Assembly (NCBI GenBank): GCA_020052325.1
Contig: JAGVPF010000066.1
Span: 1-15,673 of the forward strand
Reading direction: 5' to 3'
Length of the DNA: 15,673 nt
From: an archaeon
Lineage (GTDB): Archaea; Micrarchaeota; Micrarchaeia; Anstonellales; Bilamarchaeaceae
Shown one piece after another: positions 1 through 15,673 of this stretch. Under the pieces are notes generated by a model, which was not told the DNA's origin, did not search any database, and was given only the letters and a program-made list of their open reading frames with translations. Positions within the stretch are counted from its first letter, which is position 1. Each line of letters opens with the position of its first letter. A program made the position numbers and the translations under genes.

Positions 1-882
1 CCGGTCCAGCCGGCGCAGCCGCGGCCCGTGCAGCCGCCTGTCGAGGCGCCCACCGAGCCGTCTGAGGATTCACTGCGCCCGGCATTCACTTTAGAAGGCT
101 CAAGGACGCCTCTTCACGGCCTTGGGACCTCGGAAAACCGCGGAGACATATACGCGGCAGAAGCGCTCGGCCACATCCGGCTGAACGATTCGCTCAGTCT
201 CATCGTAGGCGGCATGTTCAGCACATACGGGCTTGCGCTCACGACAGCGCAGGCCGAATCCAGCCTCCGCAGCTATTCGGGCGACATCGCAGCCGGGCTT
301 TCCTACCAGAACGGCAGGCACTACCTTTACGGCCTCGGATTCGGCGGATACCGCGGCATCCAGACAAACCTGCTATCACTCGCGGACGGGCGCACGCTCG
401 ACCAGCTCAGCAGCGGCATCGAATTCGGCGGGGCGGGCGGATACAACTACTCGAACATTTTCGCACTGCGGGTGCAGGGCGGCAACAACCCGTTCAACCC
501 GTTCTCAGCGCGCGTTTTCGGCGCAGTGCCGTACACGTGGGCGGAAGGCGTCTATCCCTATGTGGAGGCGGATTTCCTCTGGCTCCATACGCTCCGGCCT
601 GCAGACAGCCCCGGCTTTGTCGGGCTCACCACGCTTGATGAGAACGCATTCCATGTGCGCGCCCTGGCAGGCCTGCCAATCTACCGCATCGGCCCGGTGG
701 TGCCAATCGCAATCGCCGGAGGCGAATTCAACATATCGGGCGGCAGCGTGACCTCGGGAACAGGCATCTTCGGGGGAGGGCTTAGAACCTTCTTCACCCG
801 CGGGCTGGATCTCGAGGCCTTTGGCGCTGCGACGCTGCATGGCGACCCCCTCATCCTCTTGAGGATGGGCTACCGCATGTGA
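1..882 (+). CDS. Beta-barrel-like surface protein, C-terminal part (5' end outside window)
   Basis: The frame is open from base 1 with no stop, so the gene starts upstream; the GTG at 28 is probably an internal Val. 293 residues are visible. The first about 25 are a Pro-rich linker (PVQPAQPRPVQPPVEAP), typical of a spacer between an anchor or periplasmic-like part and a folded domain. The rest has no hydrophobic helix. It is a run of alternating hydrophobic/Gly/aromatic strands separated by short polar turns (for example GDIAAGLSYQNGRHYLYGLG, YPYVEADFLWLHTL, LDLEAFGAAT), ending in an amphipathic strand ILLRMGYRM. This pattern resembles outer-membrane beta-barrels or beta-rich surface domains. 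I do not recognise a named family. The C-terminal residue is Met, not the Phe common in bacterial barrels. An extracellular beta-sandwich or propeller remains possible. Confidence 0.75.
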   Translation, partial: PVQPAQPRPVQPPVEAPTEPSEDSLRPAFTLEGSRTPLHGLGTSENRGDIYAAEALGHIRLNDSLSLIVGGMFSTYGLALTTAQAESSLRSYSGDIAAGLSYQNGRHYLYGLGFGGYRGIQTNLLSLADGRTLDQLSSGIEFGGAGGYNYSNIFALRVQGGNNPFNPFSARVFGAVPYTWAEGVYPYVEADFLWLHTLRPADSPGFVGLTTLDENAFHVRALAGLPIYRIGPVVPIAIAGGEFNISGGSVTSGTGIFGGGLRTFFTRGLDLEAFGAATLHGDPLILLRMGYRM

Positions 883-1824: not shown

Positions 1825-2724
1825 ATGGCGCTGCTCATAGAATACCTCGAAGAGGCGGCCGCATACCTGCGCGAGAAGAAGCTGAAGCTGAAGAAGCTTG
1901 ACGAGCAGTACCGCCACATCTACGACCGCGACATCAAGAAGGAGATGGCGCAGACCAGGCTGGAAATCGCGAAGAAATCCTCCGAGGTCACAAACGAGCT
2001 TCTCTACAATCTCGAGGAATTCCGCTCAATCCACAAATACTACCCTGAACTGCTGCAGGCCTATACGGAAGACGAGTACATCGGGAAGGTAATATCGAAA
2101 AAGTCCTGGCTCCTGGACTTCAAGCCTCTTCCGGCAAAGGCCGCCGCGGAAAAGCTGAATGAGCTGAAATCCTGGCGCGCCCAGCTCATGGATGCCAAGA
2201 AGTTCCTCAAGGGCTGGGTCGGCACCGTGAGCGCGCGGTCCTTCATCGCGACATATCCGGTGCTGCGCGGCTACCTGAGCGGGGACATCGACAAGGTCGA
2301 TGCGGTTTCGGCGATTAAGAATGCGGATAAAATCCTGCTCCGGGAGGGCTGGCTCCTCCTGATAGGCGATTCCCTGATACAGATACCGATTGCGAAATTC
2401 ATGACGCAGATAAACAACCTGCTTTACGAGGAGATGACGGCGAAGACCGCGTATGTCCGCTCGCAGGGCCGCGGCACCGTCGCCGAAACGGTGGCGCTCC
2501 GGAAATACCAGGAGGTCACTAGGAAAAGGCTGCATTACGAGAAGGTGCTCACGCAGGTCCTGCTCGCGAACCCGGCATACCTCAAAACCCTCAAGAAAAA
2601 GAAGAGCTGGCTTTCGCGCGAGAAGGCCGGCAACCTGGACAAGCTTGTCCAGTCGGTGACTCCGCATACGATTAAGGAACGCGTCTGGCTGAACCAGATG
2701 CGGAAAAAGCTCGAGGAAAAATGA
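1825..2724 (+). CDS. Basic coiled-coil protein of unknown function
   Basis: 299 residues from ATG 1825, directly after the endonuclease IV-like stop at 1823. I do not recognise a family. The first about 75 residues are highly charged and helical (EYLEEAAAYLREKKLKLKKL, then KKEMAQTRLEIAKKSSEV), consistent with a coiled coil. The middle contains a hydrophobic patch (EGWLLLIGDSLIQIPIAKF) too polar and short to call a membrane segment with confidence. The C-terminal 90 residues are rich in Lys/Arg (TLKKKKSWLSREK, NQMRKKLEEK). There is no signal peptide and there are no Cys residues. The one-base gap and the Shine-Dalgarno site in the upstream gene suggest translation coupled to the endonuclease IV-like protein, so a nucleic-acid-related role is possible but unproven. 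Confidence 0.8.
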   Translation: MALLIEYLEEAAAYLREKKLKLKKLDEQYRHIYDRDIKKEMAQTRLEIAKKSSEVTNELLYNLEEFRSIHKYYPELLQAYTEDEYIGKVISKKSWLLDFKPLPAKAAAEKLNELKSWRAQLMDAKKFLKGWVGTVSARSFIATYPVLRGYLSGDIDKVDAVSAIKNADKILLREGWLLLIGDSLIQIPIAKFMTQINNLLYEEMTAKTAYVRSQGRGTVAETVALRKYQEVTRKRLHYEKVLTQVLLANPAYLKTLKKKKSWLSREKAGNLDKLVQSVTPHTIKERVWLNQMRKKLEEK

Positions 2725-2743
2725 CTGCTGCCCGATTTGCGCC

Positions 2744-2749
2744 TTTTTT
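2744..2749 (+). terminator. T-run between convergent genes
   Basis: Six T in a row (GCCTTTTTTCAAG), 19 bp after the stop of the coiled-coil gene and before the 3' end of the opposing TPR gene. Archaeal RNA polymerase can stop at such U-tracts. I see no convincing hairpin. Confidence 0.35.
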
Positions 2750-2760
2750 CAAGCCTCGCT

Positions 2761-3264
2761 TCAGACGCCGCGCATGCGCTCCTCGATTTTCTTCTTTTGC
2801 GCCGGGGTTATGCGCGGGTCCTCTTTGAGGAAAAGCGAGTAGAAATTCAGGAGCAGCTGCTTGGTCTTCTTCCCGTCAAGGTTCCGCGCCTTTTTGATAT
2901 GCGAATCAGAACGCGGGTCGTCGAGGAAGAGGTAGCATATCGCCAGGAAGAAATTCGTGGTCGGGTCGTCAGGCTCGATTTCGAGGGCCTCATTGAACGC
3001 CTCGACCGCCTTTTCAATCTCGAAAAGCTCGAAATGCGCCATCCCCTTGATTTGGTAATACCTGGACTGGCGCCCGAGAAGCAGGGCGCGCTCGAAGCAG
3101 TCCTGCGCCGCGTCATAGTTGCGCATCTTGAGCGAGATGACGCCGCGGAGGTACCACAATTCGTCGTTTCCGGAATCAGTAAGGATAAGCCTGTCCAGGA
3201 CGGCTGCCGCCTCCTTGAACTTCAGCTCCCTAAGGAGCGACCTTGCCCTCTCCAATTCCTGCAT
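2761..3264 (-). CDS. TPR-repeat protein
   Basis: 167 residues made mostly of tetratricopeptide repeats: about 2-34 (ERARSLLRELKFKEAAAVLD), 35-67 (LWYLRGVISLKMRNYDAAQD), 68-101 (YYQIKGMAHFELFEIEKAVE) and a weaker fourth at about 102-134 (NFFLAICYLFLDDP). Each shows the W/Y-x-x-G-x-x-x pattern and the A-x-x-x-F/A-x-x-A-L spacing. TPR stacks are protein-binding scaffolds; the partner is unknown. There is no signal peptide or membrane segment, so it is probably cytoplasmic. The C-terminal 30 residues are very basic and acidic (TPAQKKKIEERMRGV). A good TATA box lies about 24 nt before the ATG with no Shine-Dalgarno site, so the mRNA is probably leaderless. The gene faces away from the 94-aa orphan across a 124-bp intergenic region. 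Confidence 0.9.
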   Translation of the reverse strand: MQELERARSLLRELKFKEAAAVLDRLILTDSGNDELWYLRGVISLKMRNYDAAQDCFERALLLGRQSRYYQIKGMAHFELFEIEKAVEAFNEALEIEPDDPTTNFFLAICYLFLDDPRSDSHIKKARNLDGKKTKQLLLNFYSLFLKEDPRITPAQKKKIEERMRGV

Positions 3265-3283
3265 GGTCTAACTATCGTACGAA

Positions 3284-3294
3284 AATTAATAAAA
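3284..3294 (-). promoter_or_regulatory. TATA box of the TPR gene
   Basis: On the minus strand the sequence reads TTTTATTAATTTTC, centred about 25 nt upstream of the ATG at 3264. This fits a leaderless archaeal promoter. Confidence 0.55.
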
Positions 3295-3332
3295 CCCTCA
3301 AGCATTCCCAAGCGGGGCCGGTCCGAGCATGG

Positions 3333-3342
3333 ATATATAAAA
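3333..3342 (+). promoter_or_regulatory. TATA box of the 94-aa gene
   Basis: ATATATAAAA is a strong archaeal TATA element. Transcription would start near 3362-3366, giving a leader of about 25 nt that is A-rich and carries GTGGT (3381-3385) just before the ATG at 3389. Confidence 0.6.
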
Positions 3343-3388
3343 CGTTCTCTACACAATTTTATCGTAATAAAAGTAAAAAAGTGGTACA

Positions 3389-3673
3389 ATGGCAGAGACA
3401 TTCCGTGAAAGGGAGGCCCCGAAGCCGGCTCAGGCCCAGAAGCTCCTGCCTTCAATCCGGCGCGAGGAGCATGAGCTGCATGGCCCGATAGATTCGCTTG
3501 GCCGGGTCGCCGTGAACCTTAGGATTCCTGCCGAATCGACAAGGCCCGGGAACGAGCGGGCCGTGGCAAGGGCCGACATTGACATGTTTGTGGCGAGGAA
3601 CGTGTCCGAGCTGCGGTTTGAGGGCTCGACGCCGTTGCATGCGCGTTTCCTTCGGATGCTCGAAAGCATCTGA
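3389..3673 (+). CDS. 94-aa protein of unknown function
   Basis: A small soluble protein that I do not recognise. The N-terminal 30 residues are charged and look disordered (MAETFREREAPKPAQAQKLL). The rest has short predicted strand-like stretches (RVAVNLRIP, ELRFEG) and two likely helices (ERAVARADIDMFVARNV, LHARFLRMLESI). It has no Cys, signal peptide or membrane helix. A strong TATA box and an A-rich leader support expression as its own gene. The opposing frame over the same bases has no comparable promoter. A DNA-binding or regulatory protein is possible, but nothing in the sequence proves it. Confidence 0.65.
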   Translation: MAETFREREAPKPAQAQKLLPSIRREEHELHGPIDSLGRVAVNLRIPAESTRPGNERAVARADIDMFVARNVSELRFEGSTPLHARFLRMLESI

Positions 3674-3690
3674 ATTCGCGGCCCAGCATC

Positions 3691-3700
3691 CGATATTTAC
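3691..3700 (+). promoter_or_regulatory. Possible TATA element for the two-TM PH-like gene
   Basis: CGATATTTAC is centred about 31 nt upstream of the ATG at 3727, near the spacing of a leaderless start. The match to TTTAWATA is only partial. Confidence 0.35.
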
Positions 3701-3726
3701 GATATCCAACTGCGTGGCGCTTCGAT

Positions 3727-4296
3727 ATGAAACTTATTGCCGATTCCAAGGACTTTTCTTCTGACAAGCGGGCGCTGGGTTTCACCCTGCTGCTCTGTTT
3801 CGCAATCCCGCTGATGTTCGCCCCGCTGTTTCTCCTGGCGGCGCCATCGATGGTGGGCATCCCCGCGCCAGCCGCGCTCGCAATCCTGCTTGGGGGCCTT
3901 GCGCTCCTGTTGTTCCTGGGGCTTTTCCTCAAGGGGCAGGGCATCCTCTTCAAAGTGCCTCTGCGCGTCTTTGAGGAGGGGCTGCTCATCCAGCCCGCGG
4001 TTAGCCTCCGCCCAGTCATGGTGCCCTATCCGGACATCTCGGCAATCGAGTTGTTCTACGGTGCGGAAGGGAAGGTGAAGATGGGGTGCTCGGTTTCCTC
4101 AGCGAAATCCGGCAGAATCCGGAGCATCGAGAACTTTTCCGATATAAGCGCGCTGAAATCGTTCACCGAGCGCATCCGCCCGGTCCTCGAGCAGACCGGC
4201 TTCCGCATGGAGGATTCGCAGGAAAGCGGCAATTTCGCCCGCTTCGCGTTCCGCAAGCCCATATCATTCCAGGGCGCCCCGGCATGGCGCATTTAA
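3727..4296 (+). CDS. Two-TM membrane protein with PH-like C-terminal domain
   Basis: 189 residues. There are two closely spaced hydrophobic helices at about 17-40 (LLLCFAIPLMFAPLFLLAAP) and 47-69 (LAILLGGLALLLFLGLFL), then a soluble part. The stretch at about 78-112 (VFEEGLLIQP...VPYPDISAIELFYG) has the look of bacterial PH-type domains (bPH), where a strand-turn-strand is followed by an IPY-x-DI-x-x-I motif after a membrane hairpin. The family is named by this pattern only. The soluble domain is probably cytoplasmic. The function is not known. The gene converges on guaAB, with 43 bp between the two stop codons. Confidence 0.75.
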   Translation: MKLIADSKDFSSDKRALGFTLLLCFAIPLMFAPLFLLAAPSMVGIPAPAALAILLGGLALLLFLGLFLKGQGILFKVPLRVFEEGLLIQPAVSLRPVMVPYPDISAIELFYGAEGKVKMGCSVSSAKSGRIRSIENFSDISALKSFTERIRPVLEQTGFRMEDSQESGNFARFAFRKPISFQGAPAWRI

Positions 4297-4339
4297 TCTC
4301 AATTCCGAGCCGATGCATTATTCGACGGCTCATCCCTAT

Positions 4340-5296
4340 TCACTCCATCTCAATCGTTCCGGGCGGCTTGTTCGTGATGTCGTAGACCACGCGCCCGACA
4401 GTGCGGATTTCGTTCGTGATTCGGGTGGATATGCGCTCGAGAACTTCCGGAGGGATGTGCGAGAAGTTCGCCGTCATCCCGTCCAACGAGCGTACCGCCC
4501 TGACAATGACCGTGTACTGGTAAGCCCTTTCATCCCCGCGCACGCCGACCGTCTTCGAGGGCAGAAGCGCGGCGAAATACTGCCAGGGCCTCTCCATCTT
4601 TTTCGCGGCCACAGCCGCGTCAATCTCGTTCTCGGCGATGTCGCAGGCCTCCTGCACGATATGGATTTTTTCCTCCGTAATCTCGCCCACGATGCGGACC
4701 GCGAGGCCCGGACCCGGGAACGGCTGCCTCTGGTGGATGCTTTCAGGCAGGCCGAGCTCCTTTCCCACCAGCCTCACTTCATGCTTGTACAATTCGCGGA
4801 GCGGCTCGCACAATTTCAGGTGCATCTTCTCCGGCAATCCGCCGACATTGTGGTGGCTCTTTATCGTGTCGCGGCCCATCCCCCCGCTCTCTATCCAGTC
4901 CGGGGCTATCGTGCCCTGTATCAGGAACTTGACATCCGTCGCCTTCGCCTCATCCTCGAAAATGCGAACGAACGCCTCGCCGATTATTTTCCGTTTCGTT
5001 TCCGGTTCAATGACGCCCTTAAGTGCGTCCAGGAAGCGCTTCCTCGCATCCACCACCTTCAAATCAACGCCGAGGGCCTTCGCCACCGCCTTCACCTTCC
5101 CGGTCTCGTCCTTCCTCATCAGGCCGTTGTCGACATAGACGATGTGGAGCTGGCCCGGAACCGCGCGCGCAGCGAGCGTAGCAGCAACAAACGAGTCGAC
5201 ACCGCCCGATACCGCGGTGATTGCATGGTCCTTCCCCATCCTCTCCCGTATGTCCTCCTCTGCCTGGACGATGAATTTTTTCGCTTCGAATGGCAT
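4340..5296 (-). CDS. guaAB: GMP synthase, ATP-pyrophosphatase subunit
   Basis: 318 residues. This is the archaeal stand-alone subunit that activates XMP with ATP and aminates it to GMP, using ammonia from a separate glutaminase subunit (not in this window). The PP-loop is S30GGVDS35. Other family motifs are QGTIAPDWIESG at about 127-138, IKSHHNVGGLP at 145-155, RQPFPGPGLAVR at 190-201 and the C-terminal XMP-binding/dimer end ITNKPPGTIEME. I chose the start at 5296 (MPFEAKKFI). The frame stays open further upstream, but that is antisense-like sequence inside the neighbouring gene. GGTG just before the ATG, in the last codons of the Yip1-like gene, can serve as its ribosome-binding site. Only two bases separate the two genes, so they form an operon. 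Confidence 0.96.
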   Translation of the reverse strand: MPFEAKKFIVQAEEDIRERMGKDHAITAVSGGVDSFVAATLAARAVPGQLHIVYVDNGLMRKDETGKVKAVAKALGVDLKVVDARKRFLDALKGVIEPETKRKIIGEAFVRIFEDEAKATDVKFLIQGTIAPDWIESGGMGRDTIKSHHNVGGLPEKMHLKLCEPLRELYKHEVRLVGKELGLPESIHQRQPFPGPGLAVRIVGEITEEKIHIVQEACDIAENEIDAAVAAKKMERPWQYFAALLPSKTVGVRGDERAYQYTVIVRAVRSLDGMTANFSHIPPEVLERISTRITNEIRTVGRVVYDITNKPPGTIEME

Positions 5297-5298
5297 AG

Positions 5299-6063
5299 CT
5301 ATGCACCTGAGGTTATCATTGGGTCGATTCCGAGGGCAACCGAGACGATGCTCACCGCGGCGGCCCATACAGTGAACCTGAGCAGCAGGATGATTATGGA
5401 AATCGCCATCGCGTGCGGTAGCGATATGCCATGGACGGCCGAATACGCCCTCGCATAGAGGTAAACCATCACATACAGGGTCGTGATGAAAAAAACCGCG
5501 AGCAACCCCGCGATGCCAATGCACGGGATGGGCAGGAGGAACGAGGACATCATCGAGAACCCGGCCGCGAGCCAGACAACCGATGATGCATATAGGTGCT
5601 GGCCAAGGGCGCCCTTGCCCCCGGTGATTTTGGCAATGCCATATGCGAGCCCCTCGGTCCCTATCATGATGACTGAGCCGAAAACGACATATAGGAAGAA
5701 CTGGTAGGCGGCAGCCGGCACGAGAATATCATAGCCTATGCTCGGCATCTCGGTATCCATTATCTCGGCCATCGTGTCGTACTTGGCGTTGGCGAACAGC
5801 ACGAACTCGGCCGAGTTGAGTATCCCTATCCCGAGCAGAACGAAACCGGCGAGGATGATGATTCCGAACGCAAGGGAGGCATTCGATGTCTGCGACGCTT
5901 CCGTTATCGCTGAAACATGCTTCTCGAAGGAAAAGAGGTCTTTGGCCAGCTGCCAGCTTTTTGCGACATCATCGATTTTGAGGCCTGCTATGCTCTCAAT
6001 TCGCGGCAGTTTCGCCGCGTAGTCCTTCTTCTGGGCTTTCACCGGCGCTTTCTTTCCTCCCAT
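5299..6063 (-). CDS. Polytopic membrane protein, Yip1-domain-like
   Basis: 254 residues. The N-terminal 60 are cytoplasmic, basic then amphipathic (MGGKKAPVKAQKKDY). About five membrane segments follow at roughly 64-90, 111-135, 155-178, 182-206 and 217-246. The arrangement, including GIAKITGGKGALGQHLYA before the third segment and HGISLPHAMA before the last, resembles the Yip1/YIPF-type domain found widely in archaea. Those proteins have no settled function in prokaryotes. The gene starts leaderless from a TATA box shared with the divergent endonuclease Q gene, and is followed after 2 bp by guaAB. I see no reason in the sequence why a membrane protein should be coupled to GMP synthesis. Confidence 0.8.
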   Translation of the reverse strand: MGGKKAPVKAQKKDYAAKLPRIESIAGLKIDDVAKSWQLAKDLFSFEKHVSAITEASQTSNASLAFGIIILAGFVLLGIGILNSAEFVLFANAKYDTMAEIMDTEMPSIGYDILVPAAAYQFFLYVVFGSVIMIGTEGLAYGIAKITGGKGALGQHLYASSVVWLAAGFSMMSSFLLPIPCIGIAGLLAVFFITTLYVMVYLYARAYSAVHGISLPHAMAISIIILLLRFTVWAAAVSIVSVALGIDPMITSGA

Positions 6064-8449: not shown

Positions 8450-8641
8450 ATGGGAAGCACTCTGAAGAATATTATTCTCCTTGTGATTTCACTGCTGATA
8501 GGAATCGGCGTCACCTACATGGGCACATCGCTCATGGAAGGGACGTACCCTATCGACCAGCAGCTCCAGATAATCTTCGCTGTCATCCTAACGATTTTCG
8601 CCTACACCGCTTTCTATTTCATGACCAAGGGCGGCGGCTGA
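8450..8641 (+). CDS. 63-aa two-helix membrane protein
   Basis: Two membrane segments, at about 7-29 (NIILLVISLLIGIGVTYMG) and 38-58 (LQIIFAVILTIFAYTAFYF), are joined by a short acidic/polar loop (EGTYPIDQQ). It ends FMTKGGG. I do not recognise a family. It starts 7 bp after the PRC-barrel stop and has no promoter of its own, so it is likely the second gene of that operon. Its last 17 codons and stop overlap the 3' end of the dephospho-CoA kinase gene on the other strand. Confidence 0.75.
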   Translation: MGSTLKNIILLVISLLIGIGVTYMGTSLMEGTYPIDQQLQIIFAVILTIFAYTAFYFMTKGGG

Positions 8642-9118
8642 CAGCCATTTATCTATCTTCTTTTTCAGTCTTTCATCCGGGACAACCACTACCAGCCCTT
8701 CCCCGGGCTGGCCGTATATTATTATGTCCCTCCTGCCCGCGCTTCTTATGAACGCAAGGGCGGTAAGGTCCTCCTCGCCGTCGATTAGGACGGCTCCGCC
8801 CTTCTCTATCAGCATAGGGGCGTCGGCTATAATAGACTCGGAGAGCGTCCCGGGCGGGTTGCTGTACCGGGATGGGTTCCTGAACGCGTTGTCGAGTATC
8901 GCCTTCCTTTCCGGTTCAAGGCCCTGCCTCATGAAAAGATGGTCAAAGACAGCCAGGTGCGGGAGTACCCCCGCGCCAAGCAAGCCGAGCGTGCAGACAT
9001 CTCCAATGGATATAATGCGGTGCGTCCTGCCGAGTTCCTTCAGCCCTTCGTAACCCTTCTGGAGCCTGCCAAGGGGTGATTTAAGCGTCGCCCTCACGCT
9101 GGCCGGGATGGTGACCAT
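8588..9118 (-). CDS. GTP-dependent dephospho-CoA kinase (DUF359 family)
   Basis: 176 residues, matching the archaeal DUF359 enzyme that uses GTP to phosphorylate dephospho-CoA in the last step of CoA synthesis. Conserved blocks are SIGDVCTLGLL (37-47), LAVFDHLFMR (55-64), NPPGTLSESI (87-96), LIDGEEDLTALAFI (111-124) with the acidic GEEDL active-site region, and YGQPGEGLVVV (135-145). It is soluble, without a signal peptide. The TATA element TTTTAAAC lies about 25 nt upstream of the ATG, so the gene is probably leaderless. The last 17 codons overlap the tail of the small membrane protein on the plus strand by 54 bp. Full family length and intact motifs argue that the overlap is real rather than a missed stop. 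Confidence 0.93.
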   Translation of the reverse strand: MVTIPASVRATLKSPLGRLQKGYEGLKELGRTHRIISIGDVCTLGLLGAGVLPHLAVFDHLFMRQGLEPERKAILDNAFRNPSRYSNPPGTLSESIIADAPMLIEKGGAVLIDGEEDLTALAFIRSAGRRDIIIYGQPGEGLVVVVPDERLKKKIDKWLSAAALGHEIESGVGENR

Positions 9119-9153: not shown

Positions 9154-10638
9154 CTAAAGCTCGCTTACCTCGATTGTGATTGCGGTCAAATCCGCCCGGT
9201 TCATGTGCGGCGTCACCTCGATTCTTTTGAAATCATCGGTGACTATTATGGTCGTCTTCAGGTCCTCGGGGAAAGCATATCCGGTCTGGACCGGGCTCCC
9301 CCCGCAGGTGATGTCGAAGATGGCCGCTCCATCCCCATCCACCCCGAGGTATGTGAAAACGTAGCCCCCCACGGTCTCGGTTGAGCCTGTATGGATGGTG
9401 CCGGTGAAATTCCCGACCGTGGACTCTATGCATGCAGGGCCCGGAGTGCCTCCGTCGCCTATGCCGCCGTCACTTATCCCCCCGTCTGAAACAGGGGGCA
9501 GGTCCTCCACGATTATCGTAACTGAGGTCTCCGTAGAGTTGCTCATGTGCGGCGTAACCCGAAGGCGCTTTCCGTCGGCTGGAATATCCACCGTGGTTTC
9601 TTCATCCTCATTGAACTGGTAGACGCTGACGCTGGTGCCTCCGATGCATGCAACATTGAGGATGGTCTTGCCATCAGGGCTCAGGCCGGCATAGCTGAAT
9701 ATGTAGCTGCCGACAACCTGCTCGGCGCCTAAGCCGATTGAAGAAGAGAAGTATCCATTTGCCGCGCCAGGGCAGGTGAGCGGCCCGCCATCAGTCGTTC
9801 CTCCGTCGGTCACGCCACCATCAGTGACGCCGCCGTCGATGGTTCCTCCATCGGTTCCTGTGTCCCCTCCGGTATCTGCATCCGTGTCAGCGTCCAAATC
9901 GACTCCGGCATCCATGCCCGTATCGGCATCCGTGTCAGCGTCCATGTCGGAATCCGCGTCTGCGCCTCCGTCGAAGTCCGTATCGGCATCCGTATCCATG
10001 CCGCCGTCGACAACATTGCATCTCATCGTGGCGCTAAGCCTGGCCCTCTTCGGGTCGGTCACCAGGACCTGCGTCGCTGTGACGTCTATTTCTATGACTG
10101 TCGTAACGACGCCGAATGTCACCGTGGAGTTCTCCCTTATCGGCACGTTGTCGCCGCTCGGGCCGACAAGCACATGGCACGAATCCAGGACATCGACAAT
10201 CGCCCTCTGCTCGCCCGCGGATTCATCCGTGGTCTCAAGCCTGAAATTGAAATCGCCGATTGGAAGGATGTCGCTTGAATTCAGCAGGCCGGATACCGTC
10301 TGCGGCGTGCAAACCGGCTCCACCGGGACGCAGTCCCCGCCGTCCGAGCCCCCGTCGCTTCCGCCGTCGGCATCCCCGCCGTCGGTTATGTCTGCATCCG
10401 TATCCGCATCGGGACCTCCATCATTCTGGACCCCGCCGTCGTTGTGCTGGCTGTTCGGCGGAATGGGCACGTAATTATCGATGGTCCGATCGCCGCACGC
10501 GTGCAGGCTCAGGGCTAAGACAACGCCTGCCCCCGGGGCAAGCAGCCACTTGGAAAATACGCCTTTCGTTTCCCTTTCCTCGTTCCCCTTAATCCCGATA
10601 ACCTTTTCAGAATCCGTGTCCTTGTGCAATCTGTTCAT
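9154..10638 (-). CDS. Secreted lipoprotein-like Asp-rich repeat protein, paralog 1
   Basis: 494 residues. A charged 26-residue N-region starting MNRLHKD is followed by a signal-like helix (GVFSKWLLAPGAGVVLALS) ending in LHAC-GD, with C48 as a possible lipidation Cys. Then come an acidic linker (66-102, DGG/DADTDAD), domain A (about 103-207; Cys 103, 110, 154, 207), a long acidic linker (208-287, DTDADTD then TDGG repeats), beta domain B1 (289-380), a DGG linker (381-401) and beta domain B2 (403-494). B1 and B2 share VG-(S/G)-Y, a central Cys (C331, C445) and RVTPHM/EVTPHM. These are likely extracytoplasmic beta-sandwich domains on flexible polyanionic spacers that could bind divalent cations. 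The function is unknown; a surface adhesin or S-layer-associated protein is my inference. A paralog lies immediately upstream and another at the window edge. Confidence 0.85.
   Translation of the reverse strand: MNRLHKDTDSEKVIGIKGNEERETKGVFSKWLLAPGAGVVLALSLHACGDRTIDNYVPIPPNSQHNDGGVQNDGGPDADTDADITDGGDADGGSDGGSDGGDCVPVEPVCTPQTVSGLLNSSDILPIGDFNFRLETTDESAGEQRAIVDVLDSCHVLVGPSGDNVPIRENSTVTFGVVTTVIEIDVTATQVLVTDPKRARLSATMRCNVVDGGMDTDADTDFDGGADADSDMDADTDADTGMDAGVDLDADTDADTGGDTGTDGGTIDGGVTDGGVTDGGTTDGGPLTCPGAANGYFSSSIGLGAEQVVGSYIFSYAGLSPDGKTILNVACIGGTSVSVYQFNEDEETTVDIPADGKRLRVTPHMSNSTETSVTIIVEDLPPVSDGGISDGGIGDGGTPGPACIESTVGNFTGTIHTGSTETVGGYVFTYLGVDGDGAAIFDITCGGSPVQTGYAFPEDLKTTIIVTDDFKRIEVTPHMNRADLTAITIEVSEL
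9778..10017 (-). repeat. In-frame tandem repeats coding Asp-rich linker (paralog 1)
   Basis: The plus strand shows GTATCGGCATCCGTGTCAGC-like 6-bp-periodic sequence, read on the minus strand as D-A-D-T-D-A-D. The left part (9779-9864) is a 12-bp-type unit coding T-D-G-G. The units are imperfect but keep the frame. Smaller stretches of the same kind are at 10336-10443 and 9436-9498. Confidence 0.75.
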
Positions 10639-10640
10639 TG

Positions 10641-10650
10641 TCTCCCACCC
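10641..10650 (-). promoter_or_regulatory. Ribosome-binding site of paralog 1
   Basis: Read on the minus strand this is GGGTGGGAGA, 2 nt before the ATG at 10638. The identical ten bases precede the start of paralog 2, which supports both starts. Confidence 0.6.
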
Positions 10651-10695
10651 TCTCCTCTGTTAATATTGTTGTATAAATGTGATATATATGCTAAG

Positions 10696-10704
10696 ATTTT
10701 TAAA
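10696..10704 (-). promoter_or_regulatory. TATA box of paralog 1
   Basis: Minus-strand TTTAAAAAT is centred 62 nt upstream of the ATG, giving a leader of about 35 nt. The same nonamer sits 58 nt upstream of paralog 2. The leader here is AT-rich (ATATATATC) but lacks the perfect inverted repeat seen upstream of paralog 2. Confidence 0.5.
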
Positions 10705-10735
10705 TAAATTCGCTCCGGTTGATTGGGGAAATAGG

Positions 10736-10760
10736 AAAAGAATATTAGAAAAAGGAAAAA
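10736..10760 (-). terminator. U-rich terminator of paralog 2
   Basis: Directly after the stop codon at 10762-10764 the minus strand reads TTTTTTCCTTTTTCTAATATTC and then TTTT. This is a U-rich archaeal-type termination zone without a hairpin. Confidence 0.55.
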
Positions 10761-10761
10761 A

Positions 10762-11895
10762 TCAGGGGTTCTTGACTTCTATCCCCACCGAAACTACCGT
10801 CGCTGTGACGTAGTGCGGGGTAACCTCTATCACTTTGCCATCGACCGCAACGGTCAGCGTGGTCTTCACATCCTCTGGGAACGCGTAGTTCGTCTCCACG
10901 GCGTTGCCGCCGCACGAGATGTTGAACAGCGCGTTGCCGCTTCCGTCCACGCCAAGGTACGAGAAGGCATAGCCGCCCACGTTCTCGGTGCTGCCGACCG
11001 GAATCGAGCTGCTGAAGGTGCCTGTGGTCGCATCCACGCATGCGACCGGGCCGGAGTCCGTATCGACCCCGCCGTCGGTGGTTCCCGCGTCAACGTCCGT
11101 ATCGGCATCGACGTCAGTGTCAGCGTCGACGTCCACATCGGCATCAAGCCCGCCGTCCATGTCAGTATCGGCGTCCGTGTCAGCGTCTACGTCGGTATCC
11201 GCATCGACATCCGCATCCATGTCGGCATCGGCGTCCGCGCCTCCGTCTGTGACTCCGGCGTCGGTTTCCTCCTCTATGCACCTCATCGTCGCGGTAAGCC
11301 TTGCCCTCTGGTCCGTAAGCGTCACCTGCTCGGCCTTCACATCGACCTCTATCTTGCCCGCAAGCGCCACGATTGTGACAGTCGCGTTCTCGCTGATTGC
11401 GACGTCGTCGCCGTTAAACACCGGCACGTCGCAGACATCGTTGAGGTCAACCACCGCAATCTGCTCGGATGAGGATTCAATGGTGCCTTCCAGCTCGACC
11501 CTGTAGTCGCCAACGACCAGCGGGGCGGAACCGGCGGTGATAATCGCCGAGACCGTCTGCGGCGTGCAAATCGGAGTCGGGGCTTCGCAGCCCGCGTCAG
11601 CGTCGGTATCAGCATCCGGGCCCGTATCAGAATCGGGACCCGTATCAGTATCGGCATCCATGTCGGAATCGGCATCCACATCCGGCCCGGCATCCTGGTT
11701 CGCCGGCGGAATCGGCACGTAATTATCAAGAGTCTGGTCTCCGCAGGCGTGCGCGCTGAGCGCGAGCATCGCTACGGTCGTCGGGGCAAGTAGCCACTTG
11801 GAGAAAACGCCCTTCTTCTTTTCATCCCCCGAATTGCCCTTCTCCCTCCCTTCCGGTCCCTTCTCTGATTCAACATCCTTATGCAGTCTGTTCAT
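10762..11895 (-). CDS. Secreted lipoprotein-like Asp-rich repeat protein, paralog 2
   Basis: 377 residues, a shorter paralog of the gene downstream. The N-region MNRLHKDVESEK and the signal-like GVFSKWLLAPTTVAMLALSA are followed by HAC-GD (C51). An acidic linker runs from 67 to 102, and domain A from about 103 to 206 (CTPQTVS, VVGDYRVELEG, ARLTATMRC, as in paralog 1). A long acidic linker (208-284, DADADMDADVDADTD-type) leads to one beta domain (286-377; CVDATTGTFSSS, VGGYAFSYLGVDG, NISCGG, IEVTPH). It lacks the second B domain of paralog 1. It is probably exported and lipid-anchored; the lipobox (A-H-A-C) is weak, so a simple membrane anchor is an alternative. It has its own promoter with an inverted repeat, and a U-rich terminator, so it is a separate transcription unit. 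Confidence 0.85.
   Translation of the reverse strand: MNRLHKDVESEKGPEGREKGNSGDEKKKGVFSKWLLAPTTVAMLALSAHACGDQTLDNYVPIPPANQDAGPDVDADSDMDADTDTGPDSDTGPDADTDADAGCEAPTPICTPQTVSAIITAGSAPLVVGDYRVELEGTIESSSEQIAVVDLNDVCDVPVFNGDDVAISENATVTIVALAGKIEVDVKAEQVTLTDQRARLTATMRCIEEETDAGVTDGGADADADMDADVDADTDVDADTDADTDMDGGLDADVDVDADTDVDADTDVDAGTTDGGVDTDSGPVACVDATTGTFSSSIPVGSTENVGGYAFSYLGVDGSGNALFNISCGGNAVETNYAFPEDVKTTLTVAVDGKVIEVTPHYVTATVVSVGIEVKNP
11044..11274 (-). repeat. In-frame tandem repeats coding Asp-rich linker (paralog 2)
   Basis: 6-bp-periodic sequence (plus strand GTCNGTATCNGC-like) coding D-A-D-T/V/M-D on the minus strand. A shorter stretch at 11590-11697 codes the first linker. Unit order differs from paralog 1, which points to independent expansion and contraction. 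Confidence 0.75.
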
Positions 11896-12009: not shown

Positions 12010-12660
12010 TCAGAGAATCCGGTGGCCCTTATCGTTGCCCACTATAATAATGTCGAATCTGGTGAAGATGCCGTTTTCCACTATTCCCGGCATGCTTTTG
12101 AGCCACTCCTCCATCTTTTTCGGCTCATCTAGCCTCATATCGCAGTCTATTATGAAGCTGCCATTGTCGCTTATGACCGGCCCCAGCTTGGCCTTTGCCA
12201 TCCTGATTCTTGGATTGTATTCCTTCAGGTGCCTCATGACGAGCGGGGCTGCGAAGGGAAGCACTTCGAGATTGACCTCTCCTTCGAGGACGCCTTCCTG
12301 GACCTTGCTCTCGTCAACTATGATGATGAATCTCTTGGCGTTATAGCCGATTATCTTCTCGCGCGTCAGCGCCCCGCCGCCACCCTTGAGGAGCGCGGTC
12401 TTGGTCACCTTGTCCGCTCCGTCCACGGCAAGGTCTATCTCATCGATGGCGTCGGTTTCGGTCACGAATATGCCGCTTTCTATGGCCAGCATCCTCGAAT
12501 CGAAAGACGTCGTGACGCATGTCACCTTGAGGCCCTTTCTGACCCGCTCGCCAAGCAGCTTGATGAATTCGCGCGTCGTCGAGCCGCTGCCAAGGCCTAT
12601 GCACATGCCATCCTTCACGTATTCGAGCGCCGCCTTTGCCGCATTGACCTTAGCATTCAT
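12010..12660 (-). CDS. rpiA: Ribose-5-phosphate isomerase A
   Basis: 216 residues from the ATG at 12660. The enzyme interconverts ribose-5-phosphate and ribulose-5-phosphate. Motifs are IGLGSGST (21-28, phosphate loop), DLAVDGADK (77-84, with D80 and D83), KGGGGALTREKI (92-103, with K92 and catalytic E101), IVDESK (114-119) and the C-terminal PGIVENGIFT. These positions match E. coli D81, D84, K94 and E103. The frame extends upstream to an ATG at 12711 that overlaps the previous stop as ATGA, but that adds 17 odd residues (MTDGPACARGGKKGGCS) and has no ribosome-binding site. ATG 12660 has an AAGGGGGA site and the usual N-terminal length. It is the last gene of a three-gene minus-strand unit. 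Confidence 0.95.
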   Translation of the reverse strand: MNAKVNAAKAALEYVKDGMCIGLGSGSTTREFIKLLGERVRKGLKVTCVTTSFDSRMLAIESGIFVTETDAIDEIDLAVDGADKVTKTALLKGGGGALTREKIIGYNAKRFIIIVDESKVQEGVLEGEVNLEVLPFAAPLVMRHLKEYNPRIRMAKAKLGPVISDNGSFIIDCDMRLDEPKKMEEWLKSMPGIVENGIFTRFDIIIVGNDKGHRIL

Positions 12661-12707
12661 GGAACATCCCCCTTTCTTGCCGCCCCGGGCGCAAGCCGGC
12701 CCGTCCG

Positions 12708-12929
12708 TCATTCGCTCTTGCTAAACGCCACTCCCTTGCCGTCCTCCTGGCGCAAAACCTCGAGGATATTGCCCTTCGTGTCGGCGAGCGAGACCTCGGT
12801 GAAGCTCTCCCCGGCCCTGATGGTTACTATCCTCGGGCGGTTGTCGAGCATGACTTTGATGCTGTAAATTTTCTGCCTTTGGTTGTACCCGTATTCGACC
12901 TTGCAGTTCTTGAAGATGTTTTCAGCCAT
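12708..12929 (-). CDS. 73-aa protein of unknown function
   Basis: A small soluble protein that reads as mainly beta: CKVEYGYNQRQKIYSIKVML, PRIVTIRAGESFTEVSL and NILEVLRQ look like successive strands. It has one Cys (C9) and no membrane helix. I do not recognise a family. The start follows the stop of the 97-aa gene by 4 bp, with a GGTTGATG ribosome-binding stretch, and the stop is 47 bp before rpiA. The gene is therefore the middle member of a unit. Regular codon use and tight packing make it real despite its size. Confidence 0.7.
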   Translation of the reverse strand: MAENIFKNCKVEYGYNQRQKIYSIKVMLDNRPRIVTIRAGESFTEVSLADTKGNILEVLRQEDGKGVAFSKSE

Positions 12930-14838: not shown

Positions 14839-15366
14839 TCAGGCGAGCAGGTGCAGGGTGAAAGCGCCCAGAAACGCAAGAAGGACGTACCTTAGAATCC
14901 GTCCGGCGGCACACGACAGCAGGAATCTCCACCAGGCAATCTTCAAGCTTCCGGCTATGACCCCCGCAACATCGAAAAGCGGGTTCGGGATGAATGACAG
15001 CACGAATATGGCCGCGACATCGTGCTTCCGCACGAGCCCCTCTATCCTTCTGCTCTCCTTTATGCGGTTGTTCATCAGGTCTCGGACGCCCTCCCCGGCC
15101 AGGTAACCTGTCAACTCCCCTATGGCCGAGCCGATGCCAACCACTATGCCAAGGATGACCGGGTCCAGGACAGTGCTCATCGCTATGACCACGGCCCAGC
15201 CGGGTGCGGGAAAGAGGATTGTAGCCGAACTCAGGAGGGCGATAAGGAAAGCCCCCAGGTACCCATAGCTTCCAAGGGCCGCAATGTCGCTTGAAAAGTA
15301 CAGTACTGCGGCAGCTATGCCGATTGCCGCGATTATCTGCAGGATGCCTTCGGCCTTTTTTTCCAT
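14839..15366 (-). CDS. VTT/DedA-like (SNARE-associated type) membrane protein
   Basis: 175 residues from ATG 15366; an in-frame TTG at 15378 would add four residues (MVKK) but has no clear support. About five hydrophobic segments lie at 8-30, 35-60, 66-90, 117-140 and 150-172. Family-type motifs are GIGSAIGELTGYLAGEG (77-93), with the conserved G-x-x-x-G-E, and FIPNPLFDVAGVIAG (125-139), followed by AAGRILRY (153-160), as in YqaA/DedA/TMEM64-like VTT proteins. Members are implicated in lipid scrambling or membrane homeostasis; the substrate here is unknown. The N-terminus is short and basic. A box C/D sRNA gene ends 13 nt before the start on the same strand, so the two may share a transcript. 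Confidence 0.88.
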   Translation of the reverse strand: MEKKAEGILQIIAAIGIAAAVLYFSSDIAALGSYGYLGAFLIALLSSATILFPAPGWAVVIAMSTVLDPVILGIVVGIGSAIGELTGYLAGEGVRDLMNNRIKESRRIEGLVRKHDVAAIFVLSFIPNPLFDVAGVIAGSLKIAWWRFLLSCAAGRILRYVLLAFLGAFTLHLLA

Positions 15367-15379
15367 TTTTTTAACCAAG

Positions 15380-15474: not shown

Positions 15475-15673
15475 TTAGAGGTTCGTCACGTTGATTCCAA
15501 TCGAAGTCGTCAAGGCAGTCACGGTGTGCGGGGTAGCCGTAATCCGTTTTCCGTCGATAACGATATCGATTGAAGTGGCGACGTCCTCGGGGCAGGCATA
15601 GCTGGTCTCCACGGGGTTGCCCCCGCAGGTAATCGTTAACAGGGCATCCATGCCCGGGTTCGGGCCCTCATAC
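15475..15673 (-). CDS. Third Asp-rich family member, C-terminal domain only (cut by window edge)
   Basis: 65 codons plus one base are open from the window edge to the TAA at 15475-15477; the start lies beyond the window. The visible part aligns along its whole length with the last domain of the two other family members. MDALLTITCGGNPVETSYAC matches NALFNISCGGNAVETNYAF, PEDVATSIDIVIDGKRITATPH matches PEDVKTTLTVAVDGKVIEVTPH, and VTALTTSIGINVTNL matches VTATVVSVGIEVKNP. One difference is an extra Cys (YACPED instead of YAFPED). Whether it has the signal-like leader and acidic linkers cannot be seen. It shows that the family has at least three members within this locus, on the same strand. Confidence 0.85.
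   Translation of the reverse strand, partial: YEGPNPGMDALLTITCGGNPVETSYACPEDVATSIDIVIDGKRITATPHTVTALTTSIGINVTNL

Follow-up and report, generated by a model that had tools for sequence, protein, structure and literature searches.

Candidate stalked surface proteins of Micrarchaeota, with leaders that follow the chromosomal slot and heads that largely follow the genome

The stretch of DNA analyzed here (the window, 15,673 nucleotides) is contig JAGVPF010000066.1 (C48) of assembly GCA_020052325.1, the 1.03-Mb genome (G000; 179 contigs, 62% complete) of an archaeon from the Micrarchaeota family Bilamarchaeaceae. Two intact open reading frames (ORFs), S1 and S2, lie head to tail on its minus strand, and a third gene, S3, is cut by the contig end. 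We consider it probable that they belong to a family of membrane-anchored, stalked surface-display proteins of Micrarchaeota whose heads have been copied between a few chromosomal slots. Genomes, contigs, loci, and database proteins are cited below by working numbers (G, C, L, and P). The parts of the three genes are as follows.

10762-11895, minus: S1, 377 amino acids (aa), with leader, anchor Cys51, acidic stalk, A domain, acidic stalk, and one head (B domain)
11743-11745, minus: S1 anchor cysteine, Cys51, which closes the hydrophobic segment
11587-11691, minus: S1 membrane-proximal acidic stalk, aa 69-103
11278-11583, minus: S1 proximal A domain, aa 105-206, a predicted 8-strand beta domain (predicted local distance difference test score, pLDDT, mostly 92-97)
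11047-11262, minus: S1 acidic stalk, aa 212-283, containing DNA tandem repeats (pLDDT near 50)
10765-11046, minus: S1 head (B domain), aa 284-377, an S-layer-type beta-sandwich by predicted fold match
9154-10638, minus: S2, 494 aa, with leader, anchor Cys48, stalk, A domain, stalk, and two heads
10495-10497, minus: S2 anchor cysteine, Cys48
10327-10425, minus: S2 membrane-proximal acidic stalk, aa 72-104
10018-10326, minus: S2 proximal A domain, aa 105-207
9781-10017, minus: S2 acidic/TDGG stalk, aa 208-286
9499-9780, minus: S2 first head (B1)
9157-9438, minus: S2 second head (B2)
15475-15673, minus: S3, C-terminal part of a third head (65 residues, slot II), cut by the contig end

S1 opens with a charged n-region of about 34 residues, followed by the hydrophobic segment that ends in Cys51. 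A search of its own genome with S1 gave nine matches, including S1 itself and pieces on C3, C118, and C93. The adjacent paralogue S2 (54%, E = 4.3e-90; its second head, 9.4e-31) and the S3 fragment (53%, E = 7.7e-16) both matched, a kinship that, by sequence, is far beyond chance. S1 and S2 share 68% identity in the leader, 53% in the proximal beta domain, and 40 and 55% in the heads. The original prediction was thus right that the three share a domain and the two full copies a leader, with the correction that two kinds of beta domain are present, the proximal A and the terminal B (S2 has one A and two B). The acidic DxDxD/TDGG spacers that it described are real and contain DNA tandem repeats (11087-11237 and 11606-11672).

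Based on leader type and neighbors, S3 is probably the end of a gene that starts on C93, although no overlap of the two pieces was found (longest common match, 9 bases). C118 and C3 end in the same 38 bases within a head and are therefore very likely two halves of one gene in slot III (slots are described below). Assemblies frequently leave genes of this family incomplete, since contigs stop within stalks and heads, as do C3, C93, C118, and C48.

Sequence searches gave no named family for this lipoprotein-like, modular, surface-type build, as had been foreseen. Pfam contained no match for S1 or S2 and no confident one among 24 heads, NCBIfam had nothing above cut-off for the five proteins scanned, PDB sequences gave weak partial matches (best E values, 0.019 and 0.037), and PHROGs gave one weak match, to a relative (E = 0.042). 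The sequence searches thus gave no strong match to a characterized family, which would have spoken against a new one; fold comparison gave a moderate match, to the S-layer domain of an archaeon, discussed below. Among the matches listed by a literature search of open-licence papers, no paper described such a stalked-head family.

Relatives whose source is named are Micrarchaeota or unclassified archaea. A protein-collection search with S1 returned 153 matches, and among the 120 listed, the family build was recognized in P0001 to P0029 and P0035 (some of them fragments). Visual inspection suggested that P0030 and all the other listed matches merely resemble the stalk in composition, and they were not counted. 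Family matches bearing an organism name in that list (P0011, P0023, and P0027) are from “Candidatus Micrarchaeota,” and a search with the head only recovered P0002 and P0121 alone among 141 candidates. Named genomes were scanned with a profile of six close heads, the 24-head profile being too little conserved, and six loci were found, in genomes labeled Micrarchaeota, ‘Candidatus ainarchaeum,’ or unclassified archaeon metagenome-assembled genome (MAG). The head-profile search proposed earlier for archaeal relatives (profile A1, at an E value of 0.001) matched 13 of 295 related genomes, 10 of which are among the 17 genus genomes, with the other 3 belonging to the wider taxonomic family. Members are about 190 to 550 aa long. 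Separately, L143 (585-1556, G013 C38) encodes head-like domains with an Asp stretch between them and no obvious signal segment, and L021, L023, and L032 (G035 and G023, from another genus of the taxonomic family) combine an anchor Cys and an Asp stalk with different C-terminal domains.

The cysteine stands in or just after the hydrophobic segment in 56 of 59 ORFs (different sequences starting with Met); the others are an N-truncated protein, an ORF whose assigned start is likely wrong, and a weak match that lacks a signal (L058). Based on this pattern, we infer that the Cys is likely lipid-modified and would anchor the protein in the membrane. Haloarchaeal lipobox proteins similarly carry a Cys after a hydrophobic segment, in a lipobox (LAGC) that has Gly at position −1 in about 98% of cases according to passages of PMC2945643. 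In contrast, position −1 in this family is A (18), G (15), S (11), N (7), K (2), V (1), or R (1) (n = 55, leaving out L058 and L059, both signal-less and weak), and the hydrophobic segment begins at about residue 18 to 52. Two observations limit this inference. Although 44 of the 55 residues are G, A, or S, the remaining 11 are N, K, R, or V, unlike those of haloarchaeal lipoboxes, and bacterial Lgt (PF01790) and LspA (PF01252) were each matched in 0 of 17 genus genomes, with controls found in 9 and 10 of 14. In the part of PMC12186497 consulted, archaea are reported to use AliA/AliB for lipidation instead. A more ordinary lipobox also occurs in the same organisms: a DUF4349 (PF14257) protein adjoining slot III (L011, 1429-2292, and orthologues) has a short signal with its Cys in LMFGC or LAFGC.

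Structure prediction gave an 8-strand beta domain for A and, by a moderate fold match to the beta-sandwich of MA0829 (3u2g), an archaeal S-layer domain, suggested that the B domain is an S-layer-type beta-sandwich. Several results weaken this assignment. In the Foldseek search with the whole model, the S-layer match stood at an E value of 0.11; for B alone, 3u2g was not among the 50 rows listed and came first only after VIA re-alignment; the Pfam S-layer model PF07752 had no match in the 17 genus genomes; and the profile comparison of B with A was weak (14.5%). The same model was over cut-off in 0 of 295 relatives, with the control Methanosarcina acetivorans found, and did not match S1, S2, or the 24 heads at E values up to 1. 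For a PF07752-like protein (L097), a homologue search found none, and there was no PDB match.

Stalks were compared across 65 members having a stalk of at least 20 residues, with Asp-rich defined by thresholds of our own; in a few rows, the measurement takes in other sequence (L078 ORF 13 and L092 ORF 15). Forty-nine stalks are Asp-rich, 8 are Gly-rich, 3 mix Asp with Lys/Arg, and 5 are of other kinds. The database set is biased because it was found with an Asp-rich query; in the genome-derived subset (n = 35), 21 are Asp-rich and 14 are not. A Gly stalk adjoins two Asp stalks in neighboring genes of G006 (C24), and the same head type is carried on Gly-rich and Asp/Lys stalks. Length also varies: S2 and P0003 share 96% identity in the leader, 92% in A, and 87 and 78% in the heads and differ in length by 47 residues, 43 of which fall in the second stalk as delimited in our segmentation. 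Within G008, stalks range from 42 to 277 residues, the longest including another domain. The stalks were predicted to be disordered, with no helix (pLDDT near or under 50, modeled without ions), and each is best read as a free spacer.

These data bear on the meaning first proposed for the family, that of polyanionic, cation-stiffened fibers, in which Asp stalks would become rigid rods on binding Ca2+. The prevalence of Asp-rich stalks (49 of 65, including the window's own) fits that proposal, but the 16 others, among them Gly-rich and Asp/Lys stalks bearing the same kind of head, the predicted disorder, and the DxDxDG count of 70 against 68.05 expected (195 of 500 shuffles were as high) make it very unlikely, and we did not retain it. 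A calcium-loop reading (thrombospondin type 3/DxDxDG repeat) was likewise rejected, as DxDxDG does not exceed what composition gives.

Comparison of neighbors showed that family genes recur at the same chromosomal places, whose borders in the window are as follows.

8588-9118, minus: DUF359 (PF04019) gene, fixed border of slot I
12010-12711, minus: rpiA (PF06026), the other fixed border of slot I
14839-15378, minus: gene for a membrane protein with a VTT domain (PF09335), bordering slot II

Slot I is bounded by rpiA and the DUF359 gene, both of which are present in 16 of 17 genus genomes. The two adjoin directly, leaving the slot empty, in 4 of the 16 (G002, G009, G015, and G016), and the slot holds family genes in G000, G008, G005, and G014. 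In G001, it holds a related anchor-and-stalk protein with different heads (L131, 1882-3825; 647 aa), which has a similar anchor, an Asp stalk, and Cys-rich repeats as heads; slot I thus accepts other heads. By eye, it contains other secreted proteins in G004 and a transporter-like membrane protein in G007. The border genes are apart in the assembly in five genomes (G006, G010, G011, G012, and G013), in all of which a family-type gene adjoins rpiA; one also adjoins the DUF359 gene in G006, G010 (a head fragment), G011, and G013, and the DUF359 gene of G012 has slot III-type neighbors, with no family gene seen. Slot I of G011 appears to be filled from both sides, the gene next to rpiA (L140, 3-512, C6) having a Gly stalk and an anchor Cys and being cut by the contig start.

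The neighbor of slot II is the VTT-protein gene or polC/cysS. A slot first labeled VI was relabeled II because of its polC neighbor, and slot II of G015 was assigned by leader motif and confirmed by its cysS and polC neighbors. Slot III is flanked by genes for a PIN-domain and an ACT-domain protein, and a G013 gene between PIN and DUF359 is a rearranged slot III/I hybrid.

The head fold raises the alternative that these proteins tether the cell's own S-layer, as SlaB does in Sulfolobus, with an anchor, a stalk serving as distance ruler, and a beta-sandwich docked on the lattice, the heads being alike to fit one lattice. The predicted S-layer-like fold and the grouping of heads by genome (see below) fit this. 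Moreover, a cultivated Micrarchaeon has an S-layer, of unknown anchoring in the excerpt of PMC8975820, and SlaB is described in sections of PMC6911244 as a membrane anchor, stalk, and beta-sandwich domains acting as a distance ruler. We nevertheless regard the alternative as unlikely, though worth keeping in view. The head profile was found in only 10 of 17 genus genomes (several incomplete), 4 of 16 have nothing in slot I, and stalks within G008 span 42 to 277 residues; less variation would be expected of an essential tether.

Leaders and heads have different histories, as judged from the number of label changes that slot or genome requires on a tree compared with shuffled labels. Head trees left out partial heads (L088 ORF 0, L011, L080/L044, and L092 ORF 15), heads from outside the genus, and database proteins; leader trees were made without the slot I leader of G011 (L140) and leaders outside slots I to III. 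Two slot III genes missed by the gene caller are included in the 26-leader and 40-head trees and in the sets of 17 heads and of 31 and 22 leaders, and five divergent leaders from G014 and G011 are only in the sets of 31 and 22 leaders. The hybrid gene of G013 was labeled I/III and left uncounted in head trees and was taken as III in leader trees and in the codon test.

In a first pass, 24 leaders required 4 changes of slot (shuffled, 10.4) and 15 of genome (16.4), and 38 heads required 10 changes of genome (26.9) and 9 of slot (11.0). In the careful trees, 26 leaders from 8 genomes needed 3 changes of slot (minimum, 2; shuffled, 11.9; 0 of 200 shuffles as low) and 16 of genome (17.4; 34 of 200), and 40 heads from 10 genomes needed 12 changes of genome (minimum, 9; shuffled, 27.9; 0 of 200). 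With 31 leaders from 10 genomes, slot required 7 changes (minimum, 2; shuffled, 14.4; 0 of 200). Because tandem copies inflate either signal, we also drew one row per genome and slot. Twenty heads from 9 genomes (six draws) then gave 8 to 10 changes of genome (0 of 300 as low in each draw) and 9 to 10 of slot (281 to 300 of 300), 17 heads from 7 genomes (four draws) gave 6 to 8 of genome (0 of 300) and 8 to 10 of slot (184 to 300 of 300), and 22 leaders from 10 genomes (four draws) gave 4 to 6 of slot (0 to 1 of 300) and 17 to 18 of genome (229 to 296 of 300). When the slot III leader was searched for in 59 genomes, the only matches outside its own genome were G008 C15, G015 C29, and G006 C11, all in slot III; within its own genome, the S1 leader also matched weakly (6.2e-8).

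P0001 and S1 are 87% identical in the leader and 74% in the A domain but only 30% in the head. Over 74 common head positions, 61 are identical between S1 and C3 and 66 between P0002 and P0121, versus 53 and 54 between the counterparts S1/P0002 and C3/P0121 (49 and 57 for the remaining pairs). These are counterparts by leader or A, with 83% (A domain) and 91% (leader) identity in those other parts; P0002 and P0121 may or may not share one genome. Copying has also left a trace in DNA: between cross-locus heads, identical residues have identical codons at 73 and 76% in two G013 pairs (one locus being the hybrid), 79% in G000 (S1 with slot III), and 66% in G010, against expectations of 42, 43, 47, and 51%. 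The other 21 of 25 cross-slot pairs have codons at or near expectation. Between slots, no long shared stalk tract was found among own-genome pieces (longest exact matches, 8 to 19 bases), so stalk DNA is not supported as a conversion substrate; the longer exact matches are 30 bases inside the head of S1 and C3 and the 38 bases of C118 and C3, which are very likely from the same gene.

Leaders that follow slot, heads that follow genome, and codon-level copying together suggest concerted evolution of the heads, probably by gene conversion, and the trees point to older copying as well. A number of results pull the other way. On the full trees, the 40 heads also clustered somewhat by slot (10 changes; shuffled, 13.3; 5 of 200 as low; 7 rows without a slot I to III label uncounted) and the 31 leaders by genome (19 changes; minimum, 9; shuffled, 22.2; 5 of 200), although both signals vanish with one row per genome and slot. 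The heads of only G013, G005, and G015 form single groups, with other multihead genomes needing 2 to 3 changes; 9 of 37 inner branches of the head tree are starred, and resolution is poor in the leader tree, where 2 of 28 branches are starred. Most cross-slot pairs (21 of 25) are old, at 27 to 59% identity, and recent copying is seen in three genomes only, in one of which (G013) one of the two loci is the hybrid and not a clean slot.

Such results could also arise if heads within a genome were alike only through recent lineage-specific duplication and shared composition, with no conversion between old slots. Tandem copies do exist and can inflate the genome signal, and the 21 old pairs show codons at or near expectation. 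We consider this explanation improbable because the head signal persists with one head per genome and slot, leaders still track slot when controlled in this way, and in three genomes codons agree more often than expected. Our reading of the family, then, is that the anchor Cys and the head core are its constant parts, that slot fixes the leader, and that genome largely fixes the head.

In the model that we favor, the long charged n-region and hydrophobic segment would direct export, and the Cys at the segment end, probably lipid-modified, would secure the protein to the membrane. One or two small heads of the archaeal S-layer-type beta-sandwich kind would be raised above it on a stalk that is disordered, low in complexity, and interchangeable in its chemistry. 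The genes occupy a few fixed slots among housekeeping genes, leaders being inherited within each slot and heads being copied between slots within a genome, most simply by gene conversion or recombination. The heads of one cell would thereby stay alike while diverging from those of other species, and the most likely reason for selection to act so is that all heads of a cell meet the same partner.

The nature of that partner bears on the original suggestion of adhesins contacting a host or partner cell. The stalk-plus-head build and the patchy, variable distribution agree with it; surface location and partner binding are putative. An external partner, on a host or neighbor cell surface, seems to us plausible at somewhat less than even chances; it is favored by the patchiness (10 of 17 genomes), the empty slots, and the finding that slot I can hold a similar anchor with other heads. 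The cell's own S-layer, which the head fold favors, seems somewhat less likely. Filaments have been seen between the cultivated Micrarchaeon and its host, according to the portion of PMC8975820 seen. If head type follows host and not phylogeny, the family would mark partner specificity.

Viruses offer another reason for variable heads, namely, a decoy or receptor-variation layer in which head exchange alters the surface under viral pressure. Variable, patchy, and exchangeable heads and slots that are empty or differently filled in relatives would suit such a role. However, heads that are alike within a cell make a poor decoy set, and no virus link was found: a viral sequence scan gave one weak contig match (34 residues, 35%), and a viral fold library gave no match at an E value of 0.001 or better. 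We therefore judge this role quite improbable.

Several proteins encoded nearby deserve mention in their own right. In slot I of G014, L134 encodes a protein kinase (2669-4501; PF00069, E = 1.6e-48; weak PEGA match, E = 0.037). It also encodes a protein that weakly matches outer-membrane barrels (4606-6012; PF13505, E = 0.027; PF03797, E = 0.034), which would be remarkable in an archaeon if it is indeed outer-membrane-like. By eye, two long proteins near slot III of a named Micrarchaeota MAG (L045, 12492-14441 and 14641-16188) are also barrel-like and have no convincing Pfam match; the first has relatives at loci in G008, G015, and G005. Likewise, an incomplete 293-aa ORF at window positions 1-882 (plus strand), with no convincing Pfam match, resembles by eye a membrane beta-barrel, and longer relatives occur in G006 (L082, 2425-3996) and G005 (L091, 11544-13214).

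More generally, we tentatively propose, as a possibility that we rate well below even, that concerted head exchange operates in DPANN archaea: conversion among scattered slots would spread one head type, the stalk would serve as a tolerant protein junction, and the surface would switch partner together. If this is true, head exchange would parallel the antigenic variation of bacteria, with the difference that the copies are kept alike and not diversified.

Among known systems, the MSCRAMM proteins of the Sdr/Clf type of staphylococci have an Asp-rich dipeptide-repeat stalk that lifts the binding region off the surface; their anchor, at the end opposite to that of this family, is a C-terminal LPXTG sorting signal. 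The stalks do match (S1 scores 43 bits, and none of the five proteins scanned against NCBIfam exceeds 53.5 bits), but these scores are far below the cut-offs of 999 to 2500 bits, the best stretches lie in stalks and not in heads, and stalk chemistry is not conserved in the archaeal family. By eye, no LPXTG signal was seen, as S1 ends two residues past its last predicted strand and S2 lacks the motif. MA0829 of Methanosarcina acetivorans (DUF1608/PF07752; PDB 3u2g and 3u2h) shares the predicted beta-sandwich fold but is a large lattice protein with tandem DUF1608 domains, whereas the present proteins are small, N-anchored, and stalked, with one or two heads and no sequence match to it. Sulfolobus SlaB, as presented in the excerpt of PMC6911244, resembles the family in having a membrane anchor (putative here, from sequence), a stalk, and terminal beta-sandwich domains. 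It differs in that the stalks of our family have no predicted coiled coil (pLDDT near or under 50, low confidence), the anchor is N-terminal with a conserved Cys, and there are several variable copies in scattered slots. Finally, the SPEARE proteins of Nanohaloarchaeota, in the available sections of PMC6642349, are DPANN surface proteins with variable extracytoplasmic parts that have been proposed for host contact. Most of them run to thousands of residues and include protease, laminin-G, and restriction-enzyme-type domains, in contrast to a family with no Pfam domain in S1, S2, or, confidently, the 24 heads. For studying how DPANN archaea recognize and hold partner cells, these proteins offer short, expressible candidates of clear anatomy from one genus of Micrarchaeota.

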